Positions 1,707 through 7,795 of a stretch of 20,188 nucleotides of DNA are shown piece after piece. Source of the stretch: a virus. The notes under the pieces were generated by a model. The model searched no databases. It was not told the DNA's origin and saw only the letters and a program-made list of their open reading frames with translations. The stretch covers positions 1 to 20,188 of the IMG/VR virus record IMGVR_UViG_3300009470_000013. One strand, written 5' to 3'. Each line of letters opens with the position of its first letter. The stretch's first letter is position 1. The translations under genes and the position numbers were made by a program.

Positions 1707-2899
1707 CATCCATCAAGGATCTCAAGTCAGACCACAAAAACGCAAGGCGTCGTACTGATCGTTCCGCATCACTTATTGCGGAATCACTCAAGCGGTACGG
1801 CGCCGCACGTTCAATCGTCATCGACGAAGAAGGTCGCATCCTTGCTGGTAATGGCACAGTAGAAGGCGCCAAAAAAGCAGGTATCAATAATGTTCGCATC
1901 ATCGAAGCAGAAGGTGATGAACTCATCGCTGTACGTCGTATTGGCCTATCCGAAGATGAAAAGGTTGGTCTAGCACTTGCTGATAACCGCAGCTCTGATC
2001 TCAGCGAATGGGACAATGAGATGCTGCGGCAGCTATCGGAAGAGCATGACCTAACACCATGGTTTGAAGATGACGAGCTGCTGGCTGAGGTACTAGAGCC
2101 TGAAGAAGGCAACACCGATCCTGACGACGTTCCCGAGCCACCGCCAGAGCCCATCACCAAACCTGGCGACCTTTGGATCCTCGGTGATCACCGTTTGCTG
2201 TGTGGGGACTCGACTGACGTGCTAGCTGTTGAGAGATTGATGGACGGGCAGAAGGCTAATCTTTGGCTTACTGACCCGCCTTACAACATCGCTTACGAAG
2301 GCGGCTCCAAAAAACGTAAAGCCATTGAAAATGACTCGATGGCAGCTAATGACTTTCGTCAGTTTTTGAAAGACGCCTACTCCGCTGCAGATGCCTGCCT
2401 TTGCCCAGGCGCAGCCTTCTACATCTGGCACGCCGACTCCGAGGGATACAATTTTCGCGGTGCAGCACTAGACATCGGTTGGCAGGTTCGCCAAACGCTT
2501 ATCTGGAACAAAAACAACTCGGCCTTTGGACGCTCTGATTTCCACTGGAAACACGAGCCTTGTCTCTACGGTTGGAAAGAAGGCGCTGCTCATTCTTGGT
2601 ACAACGACCGCAAGCAAACCACCGTCCTTGACTTTAGTCGCCCTGCTCGCTCAGAGCAGCACCCGACGATGAAGCCAGTTGACCTCATCGAATACTGCCT
2701 TGGCAATAACACCCAGCAAAACGCCATCGTCCTCGATTCTTTCGGTGGTTCAGGCACTACTCTCATCGCCTGCGAACGTCAGCACCGTCACGCTCGCCTG
2801 ATGGAACTTGACCCCGCCTACTGCGACGTGATCGTAAAACGCTGGGAAGACTTCACCGGCAAGAAGGCTACACTTGAGGAAGCACAGGAGGCGTTCTGA
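1703..2899 (+). CDS. ParB-like domain fused to beta-class DNA methyltransferase
   Basis: This is a 398-residue fusion. Residues 1 to about 110 match a ParB/Srx-like nuclease-type domain (for example ILAGNGTVEGAKKAGI near 46-61), common at the N-terminus of phage methyltransferases. The catalytic motif DPPY lies at 191-194 and the AdoMet-binding motif FGGSGT at 347-352. This IV-before-I order is that of beta-class amino-methyltransferases. DPPY fits N6-adenine methylation, although N4-cytosine cannot be excluded. The C-terminus (MELDPAYCDVIVKRWEDFTG) is typical. GTG is the start, overlapping the clamp stop; a stronger alternative start was not seen. No cognate restriction enzyme is adjacent, so it is probably an orphan modifier protecting phage DNA or marking it for replication or packaging. 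Confidence 0.92.
   Translation: MTSIKDLKSDHKNARRRTDRSASLIAESLKRYGAARSIVIDEEGRILAGNGTVEGAKKAGINNVRIIEAEGDELIAVRRIGLSEDEKVGLALADNRSSDLSEWDNEMLRQLSEEHDLTPWFEDDELLAEVLEPEEGNTDPDDVPEPPPEPITKPGDLWILGDHRLLCGDSTDVLAVERLMDGQKANLWLTDPPYNIAYEGGSKKRKAIENDSMAANDFRQFLKDAYSAADACLCPGAAFYIWHADSEGYNFRGAALDIGWQVRQTLIWNKNNSAFGRSDFHWKHEPCLYGWKEGAAHSWYNDRKQTTVLDFSRPARSEQHPTMKPVDLIEYCLGNNTQQNAIVLDSFGGSGTTLIACERQHRHARLMELDPAYCDVIVKRWEDFTGKKATLEEAQEAF
2886..2891 (+). promoter_or_regulatory. Consensus ribosome binding site for terminase small subunit
   Basis: AGGAGG lies 7 bases before ATG 2899, inside the end of the methyltransferase gene. It is the best Shine-Dalgarno match in the left part of the window and supports the TGATG-overlap start. 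Confidence 0.75.
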
Positions 2900-3222
2900 T
2901 GGCCGCCCCCAAAAGTACACAAGCCGAAACTCAACTACGCGCTCAACGCTTTGCTCGCATCATCGCAAGCGGTGGGCGTAGGTCTGACTGCGTTCGCTAT
3001 GCTGCCGAGAACTGGGGGGTTGGCGAGCGGTCTTGCGACAAATACCTTGCCATTGCTCGTGATCAGCTCAAAGCCGACTGGGACATCGAACGTCCGCAGA
3101 TGATCGCTGATTTACTATCGCAATGCAGCACATTGCAAATGGAAGCTAGGCGTGCTGGGCAGTATCACATTGCCCTTGGCGCCATCAATACCGCAGCCAA
3201 ACTGGCGCAACTCTGCTCGTGA
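2899..3222 (+). CDS. terS: Probable terminase small subunit
   Basis: This encodes a 107-residue basic, helical protein. Residues 17-55 (from RFARIIASGG through GVGERSCDKYLAIAR) look like a helix-turn-helix DNA-binding region, and the C-terminal half is helical (oligomerisation). Size, content and position immediately before the large terminase match small subunits, which recognise the packaging site and load the motor. It starts in a TGATG overlap after AGGAGG and ends in a GTGA overlap with the large subunit, which would keep the two in proportion. The assignment rests mainly on context, because small terminases diverge strongly. Confidence 0.75.
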   Translation: MAAPKSTQAETQLRAQRFARIIASGGRRSDCVRYAAENWGVGERSCDKYLAIARDQLKADWDIERPQMIADLLSQCSTLQMEARRAGQYHIALGAINTAAKLAQLCS

Positions 3223-4568
3223 GCATTCTTGCAGTTGCACCTGCTGGCAACGTATTGCAACAGCTCAATTACGGCAGCGGTGATGTTGACATGCCGGATC
3301 TGCTGCAACGTATCCGCAATGACTTGCACCCTGGGCAGCTTGATTTTGTAGACGACACCGCAACGCAAATTATTGGCATCTCAGCTGGCTATGGCGCCGG
3401 CAAGACTCGTGCGCTATGCGCTAAGGCAGTGATGCTGGCCGCGGCCAATCAAGGTTTTATCGGTGCCGTAATGGAGCCGACTGGCCCATTGATACGTGAC
3501 ATCTGGCAGAACGACTTTGAGCAATTCCTTGAGGCATACGAAATCCCATACACCTTCCGCGCTAGCCCGCTGCCGGAATACATGCTGCACCTGCCAGGCG
3601 GTGACACCAAGATCCTATGCCGCAGCTTCGAGAACTGGTCACGCATTATCGGCTTGAACCTTGCATGGGTACTGGCAGATGAAATCGACACCGTAACGCC
3701 AAGCATTGCAAACAAGGCATTTCCCAAGATCCTTGGTCGCCTGCGGTCCGGCAATGTCCGGCAGTTTGGTGCTGCCAGTACGCCAGAGGGTTTCCGCTGG
3801 ATGTGGAATACATTCGGCAGTGAGGAAGCGCAAGGTCGTGCAGATCGCAAGCTGATCAAGATGCGTTCTGTTGACAACCCACATCTACCGCCAGATTTTA
3901 TTGAACGGCTTGAAGCAAATTATGATCCGCAATTACTGCGGGCTTATCTTGATGGCGAGTTTGTCAACCTAACCACTGGCACTATTTACGACCGCTTTGA
4001 TCGCAGCAAGCACGTGGTAGCTGACCTACCAGACCTAGACCGCGAGCCATTACGCATCGGCGTTGATTTCAACGTTGGTAACATGTCTGCCATCATCGGC
4101 GTTCGCACCGGCAGCAGTCTGCTAGTGATAGATGAGATCAGCGGCGCACATGACACTGATGCATTGGCGCAAGAGATCCAAGCGCGTTACCCGCAACGGC
4201 GTATCTACATCTACCCAGACGCCAGCGGCGGCAACCGCAGCACCAATGCAAGCCAGACCGATATCCAGATCCTGGAGTCCTATGGCATGTCAAATCAATC
4301 GCCGCGGGCAAATCCTCCCGTCCGTGATCGCGTGGCTGCTGTTCAAGCTTTGCTGGAAAACGGCAAAGGTCAAGTGCGGCTCACCATCCACCAACGTTGC
4401 AAACGGCTCATTGAATGCTTAGAGCTGCAGTGCTACACCGATAAAGGCGACCCAGATAAGGATGCAGGCCATGACCACATGAATGATGCATTGGGCTACC
4501 TCGTCTGGCGTGAATTCAACCCACTCCACGCTGGTGCTGGCCGCAGCACAGGTATTAGGCTATATTGA
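3219..4568 (+). CDS. terL: Terminase large subunit (packaging ATPase/nuclease)
   Basis: This is a 449-residue packaging motor. The N-terminal ATPase has an upstream Q-like motif (HPGQLDFVDD, 37-46), a Walker A loop SAGYGAGKT at 55-63 with K62, and Walker B VLADEID at 151-157 with D154-E155; ASTPEG at 186-191 fits the coupling motif. The C-terminal RNase H-like nuclease has GVDFN with D283, VIDEIS near 303-308, YPDASG near 332-337, and DHMNDALGY near 419-427 with D423 as a likely metal ligand. The length is normal. The GTG start overlaps the small-subunit stop. It translocates DNA into the prohead through the portal and cuts it at the start and end. The sequence alone does not tell cos from headful packaging. 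Confidence 0.95.
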   Translation: MSILAVAPAGNVLQQLNYGSGDVDMPDLLQRIRNDLHPGQLDFVDDTATQIIGISAGYGAGKTRALCAKAVMLAAANQGFIGAVMEPTGPLIRDIWQNDFEQFLEAYEIPYTFRASPLPEYMLHLPGGDTKILCRSFENWSRIIGLNLAWVLADEIDTVTPSIANKAFPKILGRLRSGNVRQFGAASTPEGFRWMWNTFGSEEAQGRADRKLIKMRSVDNPHLPPDFIERLEANYDPQLLRAYLDGEFVNLTTGTIYDRFDRSKHVVADLPDLDREPLRIGVDFNVGNMSAIIGVRTGSSLLVIDEISGAHDTDALAQEIQARYPQRRIYIYPDASGGNRSTNASQTDIQILESYGMSNQSPRANPPVRDRVAAVQALLENGKGQVRLTIHQRCKRLIECLELQCYTDKGDPDKDAGHDHMNDALGYLVWREFNPLHAGAGRSTGIRLY

Positions 4569-4592
4569 TTGCGCAAACCATTTACCCTACCC

Positions 4593-4916
4593 ATGCTCAC
4601 GGGTGTTGAACTACTCGCCAAGGTCAAAGAACTTGGTGATTGCAGTAAGTCTGAACTGGTCCGCGCTTGCGGTTATGTGGTCAAGGAACGCCTTGCCTTC
4701 ACGCAGTTCTACGAAGCATTGCTTGAAGCAAAAGGCATTGAACTTGGCGGCAAGCCTGCCAATAAAGGTCGTAAATTGACCTACAAGACCAAGGTGCAAT
4801 TCAACGGCAAGCTATCCGTTGGCGATGGTTACGTCCGTGAGATGGGTTTTGAACCTGGCACTGAGTTTGAAATCAAGCTTGGTCGTAATAGCATCACGCT
4901 GACCGCGGCTGCGTAA
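4593..4916 (+). CDS. cyAbrB-like transcriptional regulator
   Basis: This encodes a 107-residue protein with the layout of cyanobacterial AbrB-like regulators. Its N-terminal half has LLAKVKELGDCSKSELVRA, CGYV and the signature FTQFYEALLEAKGIELG. Its C-terminal swapped-hairpin DNA-binding domain runs from RKLTYKTKVQ through EPGTEFEIKLGRNSITL. In cyanobacteria cyAbrB proteins act on nitrogen, carbon and stress genes, partly like nucleoid proteins. I chose ATG 4593, which begins as family members do (LTGVELLAKVKEL). A TTG at 4569, abutting the terminase stop, would add 8 residues. No clear Shine-Dalgarno sequence is present. It interrupts the usual terminase-portal pair, so it is probably an acquired cargo gene that modulates host or phage transcription (inference). 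Confidence 0.88.
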   Translation: MLTGVELLAKVKELGDCSKSELVRACGYVVKERLAFTQFYEALLEAKGIELGGKPANKGRKLTYKTKVQFNGKLSVGDGYVREMGFEPGTEFEIKLGRNSITLTAAA

Positions 4917-4945
4917 ACTACCGTCATGACCGCGGCGCTGTAATG
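4900..4945 (+). repeat. Short direct repeat and five-codon leader before portal gene
   Basis: TGACCGCGGC occurs at 4900-4909, at the end of the cyAbrB-like gene, and again at 4927-4936. The second copy lies in a five-codon reading frame, ATG 4926 to TAA 4941-4943, whose stop overlaps the portal start as TAATG. It may be a coupling leader, since the portal start has no Shine-Dalgarno sequence, or a footprint of the event that inserted the regulator gene. Either reading is tentative. Confidence 0.35.
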
Positions 4946-6388
4946 TACACCGGCTTTAATAACTACGACCGGCCTATTGCGCAGCGCCGCGTTACTCGCG
5001 TGCAGGATGCCAATACTGCATGGTATGCGCAGGAAGCACATTGGATCTTGATTGAAGATCTACTGCAAGGCACTTACGGTATGCGCCGCAAGCATCGGCG
5101 TTACCTACCGCAAGAACCACGTGAGCTAGATGAGTCCTACGACAACCGTTTAGCACGTAGCGTATGTCCGCCGTTCTATCAACGTCTAGAGCGGATGCTG
5201 GCTGGCATGTTAACGCGCAAGCCAGTACGGCTTGACGATACTGCAGACGTCATCCGCGAGCAGTTGTTTGATGTTGACCTGCAAGGCAATGACCTTAATG
5301 TTTGGACCTATGAAACAGCCCGCAAAATGGTCCGTTATGGCCATGTTGGTGTACTGGTGGATGCACCTGCTAATGGCGGTAGACCCTATTGGGTGACCTA
5401 CACACCACGGCAAGTCCTTGGTTGGCGTGCTGAGCAGCAAGAAGGCCGTCAAGTATTGACGCAACTGCGGCTTGCTGAAATGGTCAACGTACCAGATGGT
5501 GAATTTGGCGAAAAAGCAGTGGAGCAAATCCGTTTGCTAACGCCAGGTGAATTTCAGCTGCATCAAAAGCAAGACAATGGCGAGTTTCAAATCATCGACG
5601 AAGGCCGCACAAGCCTTAGTGAGATTCCATTTAGTGTTGCCTATGCGCAGCGCAGTGCATTCATGGAGTCACGGCCACCGCTTGAGGATATTGCAGAGCT
5701 AAACCTTAAGGCATATCAAATCCAATCTGACCTAGACAATCAGCTCCACATCAGCGCTGTGCCGATGCTGGCGTTTTATGGCTTCCCATCTGCTGCAGAG
5801 GAAGTAAGCGCTGGACCGGGCGAAGCAATTGCATTTCCTGCTGAAGGGCGTGCAGAATACATCGAACCAGCTGGCCGCAGTTTTGATTATCAGTTCAAAC
5901 GTCTAGAACAGCTTGCAGCGCAGATCAATGAACTTGGCCTATCAGCAGTGTTGGGTCAAAAGCTATCGGCTGAAACCGCCGAAGCAAAACGCATTGATCG
6001 CAGTCAAGGTGACAGCACCATGATGGTCATTGCGCAAAATGTGCAAGACATGATCGACAACTGCTTGCAGTTTCACGCGCAGTACATCGGCAACAGCACT
6101 GCACCAGGCAGTAGCTACGTGAACCGTGATTTCCTTGGTACACGCCTTGAACCGCAGGAAATCCAATCTTTACTGCAGCTTTACACTGCTGGCACCATCA
6201 CGCAGGAGACTTTACTGCGTGAGTTATCTGAAGGCGATGTGCTGGGCGATGACTTTAACGTAGATGAAGAGCTGGAGGCTACGGCCAATGCGGGGCTTGA
6301 TTTACCATCTGCTGGACTGGACAACCGACCGCTTAGTGGATTTGATGATAATGATCGAACCCAAGAGGCCGAGGAAGCAGGAGCTTGA
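4943..6388 (+). CDS. Portal protein (DUF4055 type)
   Basis: This 481-residue protein resembles DUF4055 portal proteins. Visible pieces are the early WILIEDLLQGTYGMRR and LPQEPRELDESYDNRL region, an SVCPPFYQRLERMLAGML helix, VRYGHVGVLVDAPANGG near 129-145, and the later stem/crown helices around QINELGLSAVL and KLSAETAEAKRIDR. The length is normal for portals. As a dodecamer it forms the DNA entry channel at one head vertex, docks the terminase during packaging and later carries the connector. The start is ATG 4943 within TAATG. It follows the terminase with only the cyAbrB-like gene between, which supports the call. Confidence 0.88.
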   Translation: MYTGFNNYDRPIAQRRVTRVQDANTAWYAQEAHWILIEDLLQGTYGMRRKHRRYLPQEPRELDESYDNRLARSVCPPFYQRLERMLAGMLTRKPVRLDDTADVIREQLFDVDLQGNDLNVWTYETARKMVRYGHVGVLVDAPANGGRPYWVTYTPRQVLGWRAEQQEGRQVLTQLRLAEMVNVPDGEFGEKAVEQIRLLTPGEFQLHQKQDNGEFQIIDEGRTSLSEIPFSVAYAQRSAFMESRPPLEDIAELNLKAYQIQSDLDNQLHISAVPMLAFYGFPSAAEEVSAGPGEAIAFPAEGRAEYIEPAGRSFDYQFKRLEQLAAQINELGLSAVLGQKLSAETAEAKRIDRSQGDSTMMVIAQNVQDMIDNCLQFHAQYIGNSTAPGSSYVNRDFLGTRLEPQEIQSLLQLYTAGTITQETLLRELSEGDVLGDDFNVDEELEATANAGLDLPSAGLDNRPLSGFDDNDRTQEAEEAGA

Positions 6389-6608
6389 TTATCACATCAG
6401 CGCCTTGCCTGAAGAAGTACTTGCTATTGTGCGCGTCACTTGGTACAAAAATGGCAAAGCAGATGAAGTGGATCAGGTGACACTGATGGAAGACGGCCAG
6501 AACGGTTACGACGCATTTGCTGCACTTGTCGGCAGTGCATTAAACCGTGGCGCTAATGTCAGTATCCGCAGTGGATATGCACCGGAAGATTTAGGCATCG
6601 TGCAATGA
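6345..6608 (+). CDS. Hypothetical protein between portal and minor head gene
   Basis: I do not recognise this protein of about 87 residues. It has an acidic/basic N-terminus (IEPKRPRKQELDYH) and then an alternating strand-helix pattern with RVTWYKNGKADEVDQVTLM and a C-terminal GANVSIRSGYAPEDLG. ATG 6345 (AGTGGA just upstream) and ATG 6351 are both possible; a longer frame from 6264 lies deep within the portal gene and is unlikely. The gene overlaps the portal end by about 40 bases and the next gene by four (ATGA), which fits a genuine coupled gene in the head operon. Confidence 0.6.
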   Translation: MIMIEPKRPRKQELDYHISALPEEVLAIVRVTWYKNGKADEVDQVTLMEDGQNGYDAFAALVGSALNRGANVSIRSGYAPEDLGIVQ

Positions 6609-7795
6609 GTACACCAGAAGCGCTATATCGTAATGCGATTGATTTAAACCGCTACAGCAATAGCGTTGCACGGCGTATTATCAATGCTTACAACGACATC
6701 ATTATTGATGCAGTCAATCAACTACGCACGATTGATGACTTAACAGCACCAGTCAAGGCAGCACGCTTACGGGCGATCTTGGCGCAACTCAAGGACAGCC
6801 TTGGTACATGGGCTGGTGATGCAACAGAGCTAACTGCATTGGAACTGCAAGGCTTAGCGCAGTTGCAGTCGGAATTTGTTACAGATCAATTAGCACGCGC
6901 ATTACCGATAGGTGCTCGTGATGCTGTACGCACTGTTGAGATCAGCCCACAATTTGCGCAGTCAGTTGTAACCACGGATCCAACGCAGATCAATGTGGTA
7001 GCGTTAAGTGATGACCTATTTGCAGCAGTGCAAGGCGCACCGCAAACTTTTAGCCTTACTGCAGCGCAAGGTGCAACGATCACATTACCCAATGGCCAAG
7101 TAGTCAGCAAAGCATTTCGTGGTATTGCTGTAGATCAAGCAGAGCGGTTCAATCAAGTAGTACGGCAAGGCTTGCTAACAGGTGAAACCACGCCTGACAT
7201 CGCTAAGCGATTGGTTGGTAACTTACAATTCGGCGAACGCGCACGCACCGTTAATCAACTTGTTGCAGCAGGCGGTCAAGCAACTGCTGTAGCTGATAAT
7301 CAGATCGTTACGCTTGTACGTACAAGCATTAACCAGGTAGCCAATGCAGCCAGCCAGCAGGTATATGAAGCAAATCAAGACATCACTAAGAAATATCGCT
7401 ATGTGGCAACACTGGATACCCGCACCAGCAGCATTTGTCGTGCATTGGATGGTAAAGAGTTTGAATATGGCAAAGGACCAACACCACCGCAGCACTTCAA
7501 CTGCCGTTCGACCACGGTGCCAGTAATTGACTACGACGAGCTTGGTTTTATACCACCACCACCAGCAACGCGTGCATCAGCCGGTGGTCAAGTGCCAGCC
7601 GATCAAACCTATGGGCAATGGCTGGCCAAGCAAGACCTAGAAACTAAAGCCAAAGCGCTTGGTGCCAGTAAGGTGCCATACTTCAACAGGCTTGCTGAAA
7701 AGCACGGCCCAACTAATGCCATTGCCAAACTTGTGCGTGATGATGGATCAGAGCTAACCTTGGATCAACTACGCGCACGATATGGACCTGCCTAG
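6605..7795 (+). CDS. Minor head/head morphogenesis protein (SPP1 gp7/Mu gpF-like)
   Basis: This is a 396-residue protein. The N-terminal about 250 residues are helical. Residues about 263-308 carry the hallmark of the phage head morphogenesis family: YRYVATLDTRTSSICRALDG, then a spaced PPQHFNCRSTTVP with conserved Cys, His and Asn-Cys-Arg residues. In SPP1, gp7 binds portal and DNA and helps DNA exit; Mu gpF acts in head assembly. Position just after the portal agrees. The start is in an ATGA overlap. A C-terminal extension of about 85 residues (Pro/Ala-rich linker, then a helical region QWLAKQDLETKAKALG) has no function I can assign. Confidence 0.88.
   Translation: MSTPEALYRNAIDLNRYSNSVARRIINAYNDIIIDAVNQLRTIDDLTAPVKAARLRAILAQLKDSLGTWAGDATELTALELQGLAQLQSEFVTDQLARALPIGARDAVRTVEISPQFAQSVVTTDPTQINVVALSDDLFAAVQGAPQTFSLTAAQGATITLPNGQVVSKAFRGIAVDQAERFNQVVRQGLLTGETTPDIAKRLVGNLQFGERARTVNQLVAAGGQATAVADNQIVTLVRTSINQVANAASQQVYEANQDITKKYRYVATLDTRTSSICRALDGKEFEYGKGPTPPQHFNCRSTTVPVIDYDELGFIPPPPATRASAGGQVPADQTYGQWLAKQDLETKAKALGASKVPYFNRLAEKHGPTNAIAKLVRDDGSELTLDQLRARYGPA

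Follow-up and report, generated by a model that had tools for sequence, protein, structure and literature searches.

The 20,188 bases analysed here, which make up an entire virus record and are referred to as the window, encode on the plus strand a full-length cyAbrB protein of 107 amino acids (4593..4916), and its gene is sited between those for the large terminase and the portal. The gene is accessory cargo, and the interval that holds it is a variable cargo site in this phage group. A cyAbrB-type host regulator at this place had already been proposed by a sequence-only reading of the window; this analysis adds that the protein belongs to a single viral clade and lacks the acidic tail, that the site is a cargo slot, and that a promoter-like element precedes the gene.

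Family assignment and predicted structure

The coding frame opens with an ATG at 4593, closes with the TAA stop at 4914-4916 and yields the 107-amino-acid product. A longer alternative frame opens with TTG at 4569, but the adjacent relatives listed have either TTG or TTC there, and the ATG is therefore the preferred start. A Pfam search placed residues 38-103 in PF14250 (AbrB-like) with an E-value of 2.4e-22 and a score of 79.3 bits against a gathering cut-off of 25, over model positions 1-70 of 70, and the residues upstream of this match aligned with the N-terminal region of host cyAbrBs (8 host rows). The cyAbrB identity claimed earlier was thus borne out: Pfam puts the C-terminal domain within the cyAbrB family, and all relatives seen came from cyanobacteria or cyanobacterial viruses. 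Searches of PHROGs and NCBIfam returned nothing for the protein up to E 0.1, and a PDB sequence search gave a single, chance-level row (E 1.2).

The structure was modelled on an alignment of 32 sequences (mean pLDDT 75.5, pTM 0.44), and the model showed two parts. The N-terminal cyAbrB region, delimited by alignment and model to residues 1-48 (4593..4736, plus strand), was modelled as three helices and a short hairpin followed by a weak linker, and its structural matches were weak winged-helix-like rows and nothing else. The C-terminal AbrB-type region, residues 60-107 (4770..4913, plus strand), was modelled as strands surrounding one short helix (block pLDDT 58-78) and ends without an acidic tail. 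Its top matches were AbrB, SpoVT and MazE chains, with Foldseek probabilities of up to 0.96 but weak E-values (0.14 at best), and structural comparison with these chains gave Z-scores of up to 4.1. Because MazE and VapB chains are among the fold matches, one might read the protein as an AbrB-type DNA-binding antitoxin belonging to a toxin-antitoxin pair, but the Pfam family is PF14250, the cyAbrB N-terminal region is present, and the flanking genes are portal and terminase, so that there is no adjacent partner toxin; we consider this role scarcely credible.

Occurrence in viral contigs and phage isolates

The search for the gene in other viruses that had been proposed with the original reading returned at least 151 relatives in viral contigs. 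A direct-pattern scan found these 151, which excludes a chance occurrence, and amongst the best 80, which were kept, the terminase precedes and the portal follows the gene in 78; the remaining two (L054 and L071) run off the contig. Stray host contamination is therefore rejected, since 78 of the 80 best matches lie between phage genes and the remaining two have phage genes on one side. A wider pattern gave 386 relatives, the best 80 of which were identical to the earlier 80. A third scan with a different query found 109, from which 80 further loci were kept; a window-like terminase and/or portal adjoins the gene in 54 of these 80 loci and neither does in 26.

In 50,697 phage records, 16 matches were obtained at E-values up to 10 and none spanned 80% of the query, so no isolate with a full-length gene is known from this set. 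The isolates KBS-S-2A, S-H1 and MED4-184 share 73-81% identity with the window in the terminase and 60-79% in the portal, and between these two genes they hold an 85-amino-acid gene (KBS-S-2A), three annotated ORFs (S-H1), of which one is presumably nucleotide-kinase-like, or no annotated gene (MED4-184).

A variable cargo site between terminase and portal

The left wall of the slot is the large terminase gene (3219..4568, plus strand; PF17289/PF03237, phrog_2) and the right wall is the portal gene (4943..6388, plus strand; phrog_145, PF13264). A possible small terminase gene, suggested by position and size, lies at 2899..3222 on the plus strand; it matches phrog_34910, a family with no assigned function. 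Across the distinct viral loci with both walls, cyAbrB was found in between in 133 of 237, made up of 109/109 loci from the cyAbrB scans, 17/61 from the portal scan, 7/64 from the terminase scan and 0/3 isolates. Each scan retained its best 80 matches, only distinct sequences were kept and cyAbrB-scan loci were counted first; 17/61 and 7/64 are thus lower bounds, because carriers already counted in the cyAbrB scans drop from the others. The gene was missing from the slot in 44 of the 61 distinct portal-scan loci and in 57 of the 64 distinct terminase-scan loci.

Locus L302 presents an empty site, in which TAT-TGATT is joined directly to ATGTACACCGGC, whereas in the window TAT-TGATT is followed by the gene and then by ATGTACACCGGC. 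Elsewhere the slot contains a peptide of about 47 amino acids, unrelated genes or nothing. We take the small peptide to be membrane-bound by the look of its sequence, and some inserts are, we assume, homing-endonuclease-like genes; an insert in L225 matches endonuclease VII. The earlier statement that terminase and portal genes are usually adjacent holds only in part for this phage group, in which the two genes enclose a slot with variable cargo. The accompanying suggestion of an auxiliary gene is upheld by the patchy presence in the slot and the empty sites in relatives.

The position between terminase and portal, and nothing more, would favour a structural or packaging part. Locus L319 lacks cyAbrB in the slot although its terminase and portal are 95% identical to those of the window, the slot elsewhere holds unrelated genes or nothing, and in L178, L225 and L234, which have an unrelated terminase, the gene still adjoins the portal. 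Such a part, disfavoured by the patchy presence, is very improbable. Unrelated terminases, with 29-34% identity, precede the same cyAbrB-portal pair in L035, L178, L179, L225, L227, L229 and L234, which may be a sign of terminase replacement.

Searches of 20 whole records gave two matches (L286 and the contig of L033/L299), both in the slot; cyAbrB was absent from the other 18, of which 17 show the slot, while in L281 the slot falls outside the contig. Additionally, recombinases of families PF00589 and PF00239 were found in 0/16 records (L212, L218 and 14 carriers of the slot gene), any of which may be a fragment; the absence of these integrase and resolvase families makes a role in lysogeny less likely.

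Two further genes of the window lie ahead of the terminase genes. Positions 1703-2899, just before them, encode a DNA methyltransferase fused to an N-terminal part that is ParB-like (phrog_498, phrog_620; PF01555), and positions 663-1706 encode a beta clamp of DNA polymerase III (TIGR00663; score 172 bits, cut-off 137.65).

Phylogeny and probable host origin

Amongst 571 host proteins, the best 80 were 58-68% identical to the viral protein and carried titles mostly of Cyanobium, (freshwater) Synechococcus and uncultured cyanobacterium. Matches occurred in 41/41 sampled genomes from the family of one near host protein, with one to eight each, and the seven genomes behind the host loci had 3-11 PF14250 matches each (of the 11, one was below the cut-off and one was partial). 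In a phylum-wide sample, 21 of 59 genomes gave a match, mostly in two copies. One record with a typical freshwater picocyanobacterial cyAbrB (L104) is titled as a Bifidobacterium breve MAG, and for this reason its title or binning is probably wrong.

The cyAbrB tree that the sequence-only reading had called for placed the slot copies in one viral clade. After clustering of 231 rows to 125, one set with an SH-aLRT of 99 comprised the 43 slot rows plus three further viral ones. For a more careful tree of 103 rows and 111 columns, the tails were cut, 8 long-branch rows (L225 from the slot among them) were removed and only 5 of the distant hosts were retained; in this tree, 45 viral rows formed one clade with UFBoot 99 and SH-aLRT 86, recovered in 98% of 200 bootstrap trees, the columns being few and the bootstrap not settled. 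The clade groups with Cyanobiaceae-type rows, the support applying to the viral clade and not to one exact sister. The slot gene belongs to a viral branch of cyAbrB. Phages of freshwater picocyanobacteria most likely acquired it in a single capture from a Cyanobiaceae-type cyAbrB and have kept it since as accessory cargo, for the most part between terminase and portal; many separate captures in the slot are disfavoured by the single clade. The near host proteins and the place of the clade also fit the earlier expectation that this gene points to the host, and the virus most likely infects freshwater picocyanobacteria.

Two clade members, L212 and L218, adjoin a fused protease-capsid gene, and L212 also has a lambda-type portal; their presence in the clade with an unrelated head module indicates that the gene moved between unrelated phages. 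Other viral copies are scattered among hosts in the careful tree (15 rows, 11 changes), and their neighbours include RecT (L183, L204), a helicase (L196), a polymerase (L199) and another terminase (L195). L183, L195, L196, L199, L204 and L188 are viral cyAbrBs with acidic tails on host branches, and the gene in L188 is near a zeta-toxin-like ATPase domain.

Selection and divergence from host proteins

Viral clade genes are under purifying selection. Median dN/dS was 0.13 in the clade of the window (12 genes) and 0.21 over all clade rows, compared with 0.08 for the terminase, 0.07 for the portal and 0.17 for hosts, all of these values being rough because dS is high.

The viral protein has the full two-part architecture of Cyanobium and Synechococcus cyAbrBs (PF14250; the family of Synechocystis cyAbrB1, Sll0359, and cyAbrB2, Sll0822), with conserved N-terminal motifs and AbrB region, but differs in being phage-encoded and of a single clade, in its shorter linker and in its missing acidic C-terminal tail. 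At least three D/E amongst the last 12 residues were found in 0/43 slot rows versus 53/63 host rows; the tail is absent from ten host rows too and is a common host feature, not a stated criterion of the family. The window protein lacks some five residues of the loop that follows CGYV in hosts, and the stretch is missing in 27 more of the 46 clade rows. Other differences from host proteins fall at positions 78, 81-84, 86, 99, 100 and 102, and a K/R is fixed at position 65 (46/46 clade rows). The host K/R78, present in 38/39 host rows, is replaced in 46/46 clade rows, host K99 and R/K102 are mostly replaced, and R or K occupies position 82 in 25 of the 46. A higher charge of the DNA-binding core was sought and not found, the net charge being 4.7 in the clade versus 5.6 in hosts; what differs is where the basic residues sit.

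Two genes appear to be chimeric viral cyAbrBs. The gene of L321 (2079-2411) is 97% identical to that of the window in the leader and 95% in the C-terminal part, but only 69% in the N-terminal part, and the gene of L077 (5001-5318), which combines the leader of L251 with the C-terminal part of L010, looks like a second chimera.

A promoter-like element ahead of the gene

A -10-like hexamer, TATATT (4561..4566, plus strand), lies 32 bases before the ATG, where it overlaps the last terminase codons and the stop, and it is followed by a short leader (4567..4592, plus strand) with no evident Shine-Dalgarno sequence. The hexamer fits TAnnnT, which occurred 26-33 bases before the ATG in 78/78 distinct slot leaders, compared with 12.5 expected from shuffles. 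The first count also included 26 non-slot viral leaders (22 with TAnnnT) that mix clade and non-clade genes; recounted by clade, the motif was present in 79/79 distinct clade leaders and 4/8 other viral leaders. Host leaders had it at the same distance in 40/106 cases (17.7 expected). The motif recurs in L010 and L029, in which other DNA has taken the place of the terminase end, and in L212 and L218 with their different backbone; in the latter two loci the 3' part of the leader, ATTTACCCTACC, also stands ahead of the gene. These observations make it likely that the cyAbrB gene has its own promoter. A scan of positions 3100-6700 for consensus sigma-70 promoters gave a single site, at 4867, and none at the cyAbrB leader, and of the three terminator-like sites in the same interval none is just downstream of cyAbrB.

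The overlap with the terminase gene is mirrored in its codons. Where the ATG is no more than 32 bases past the terminase, the motif extends into the end of the terminase gene, and the penultimate terminase codon ends in TA in 62/62 cases. A penultimate leucine is encoded by CTA in 55/57 terminases with cyAbrB adjacent, in 1/27 with cyAbrB distant and in 3/49 without cyAbrB, and CTA makes up 15% of leucine codons in these terminases as a background (Fisher 7.5e-24 for 55/57 versus 3/49, with relatedness ignored). Such count tests overstate the effect because the sequences are related, and joint inheritance of terminase end and leader could mimic selection on the codon. In addition, 40/100 terminases lacking cyAbrB in the slot end in a TA codon (37 ATA, 3 CTA; freshwater type 3/50), showing that the AT-rich marine type has the same bases without the gene.

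The portal gene is preceded by a similar element, TAAACT (4914..4919, plus strand), which overlaps the cyAbrB stop codon; in relatives, TAAACT ahead of the portal often straddles the stop codon of the preceding gene. TAnnnT was present at 26-33 bases in 112/151 distinct portal leaders (15.2 expected). The promoter-like element is thus not special to the cyAbrB gene, and in these phages the head-module genes may each have a promoter.

These motifs bear on the idea that the protein is a regulator of phage genes, acting mainly on TAnnnT promoters near head genes, perhaps including its own leader, and timing the head module. TAnnnT lies ahead of both cyAbrB and portal, the leader is partly common even to an unrelated backbone, and in L212 and L218 the gene is again beside a capsid gene. 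The 17 records with the slot seen and no cyAbrB in it have no copy elsewhere, however, so head gene control works without the protein, unless fragments hide a copy. We regard this function as unlikely.

Proposed role and comparison with known systems

The explanation that we tentatively prefer, and hold to be plausible without calling it probable, is that a viral cyAbrB, captured once and carried as accessory cargo with its own promoter, competes or co-assembles with host cyAbrBs on AT-richer DNA. Host RNA polymerase would transcribe the gene from this promoter, and not only with the late operon, and the protein, like host cyAbrB, would be a DNA-binding oligomer of swapped-hairpin type. Lacking the tail, it could then compete or co-assemble with several host cyAbrBs on AT-richer DNA, that of the phage included, and phage and host promoters would escape host cyAbrB control by counter-silencing or redirection. 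In published work, cyAbrB2 binds AT-rich DNA, has been likened to H-NS/Lsr2 and was put forward as a nucleoid-associated protein of cyanobacteria with a possible part in defence against foreign DNA (PMC11368403), and cyAbrB1/2 are positively charged, bind a promoter in vitro and were reported as a dimer (PMC9241938). GC content is 53.5% in the phage versus a mean of 66.4% in the host loci. A lower GC content in carriers was sought and not found (55.1% versus 55.7% in freshwater-type non-carriers), so GC does not predict carriage of the gene.

A stronger version would make cyAbrB a xenogeneic silencer that picocyanobacteria hold in several copies and the tail-less viral clade a dedicated counter-silencer acting in mixed swapped-hairpin oligomers with host cyAbrB, its N-terminal regions having been traded among phages (L321, L077) to suit different host partners. 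As a whole, we find this version improbable.

The viral copy might instead act at host promoters, the main idea of the sequence-only reading, and turn carbon and nitrogen or day/night metabolism to the phage's advantage. One study describes cyAbrB1/2 as acting in carbon and nitrogen metabolism and in the day-night switch of Synechocystis (PMC9241938), and conservation with hosts extends over the N-terminal region and much of the AbrB domain. The clade-specific changes in the AbrB domain and the missing tail argue against a plain copy, however, and the neighbours in the window are packaging genes; metabolic reprogramming is rather unlikely, if somewhat less so than the regulation of phage head genes.

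The viral protein resembles the Lsr2/H-NS regulators carried by phages. The Lsr2- and WhiB-type regulators of actinobacteriophages, which are already known, are likewise host nucleoid or transcription factors carried by phages and show group-specific synteny (PMC8612146). They belong to another protein family and another host phylum. In the same paper, their phage sequences are described as grouping within bacterial clades and as enriched in temperate phages. The cyAbrB slot, by contrast, is dominated by one viral clade, and none of the 16 possibly fragmentary cyAbrB records mentioned above had PF00589 or PF00239. AbrB domains in jumbo phages are mentioned in general terms in another paper (PMC7824862). 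Amongst the open-licence papers listed for AbrB or cyAbrB and for phage-borne silencers, most of them judged by their listing, we found no report of cyAbrB in a cyanophage.

The gene also resembles moron cargo. Morons are accessory phage genes located between other genes and equipped with their own promoter and terminator. Like these, the gene described here is an accessory gene among structural genes with a promoter-like element and a site that is empty in relatives (L302, L319); unlike a moron, it has no terminator-like site just after it in the window, and the neighbouring portal gene has a similar -10-like element.

A viral branch of cyAbrB that has long been maintained under selection would count as evidence from nature for the importance of this regulator in infection. 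The host and viral proteins would form a defined pair for testing xenogeneic silencing in cyanobacteria, and the terminase-portal slot offers a convenient site at which to seek more anti-host cargo.

Parts of cyAbrB also occur in other protein contexts. The N-terminal region alone is found inside an 'antirestriction protein' gene of Synechococcus phage WH11-B (L085:1647-2207), with a match also in phages 7B11-B and S-B28, and P-TIM68 has it as a short protein (L086:2001-2159). In the host genomes G084 and G092, the N-terminal part lies within open frames of 589, 1110 and 1276 residues.
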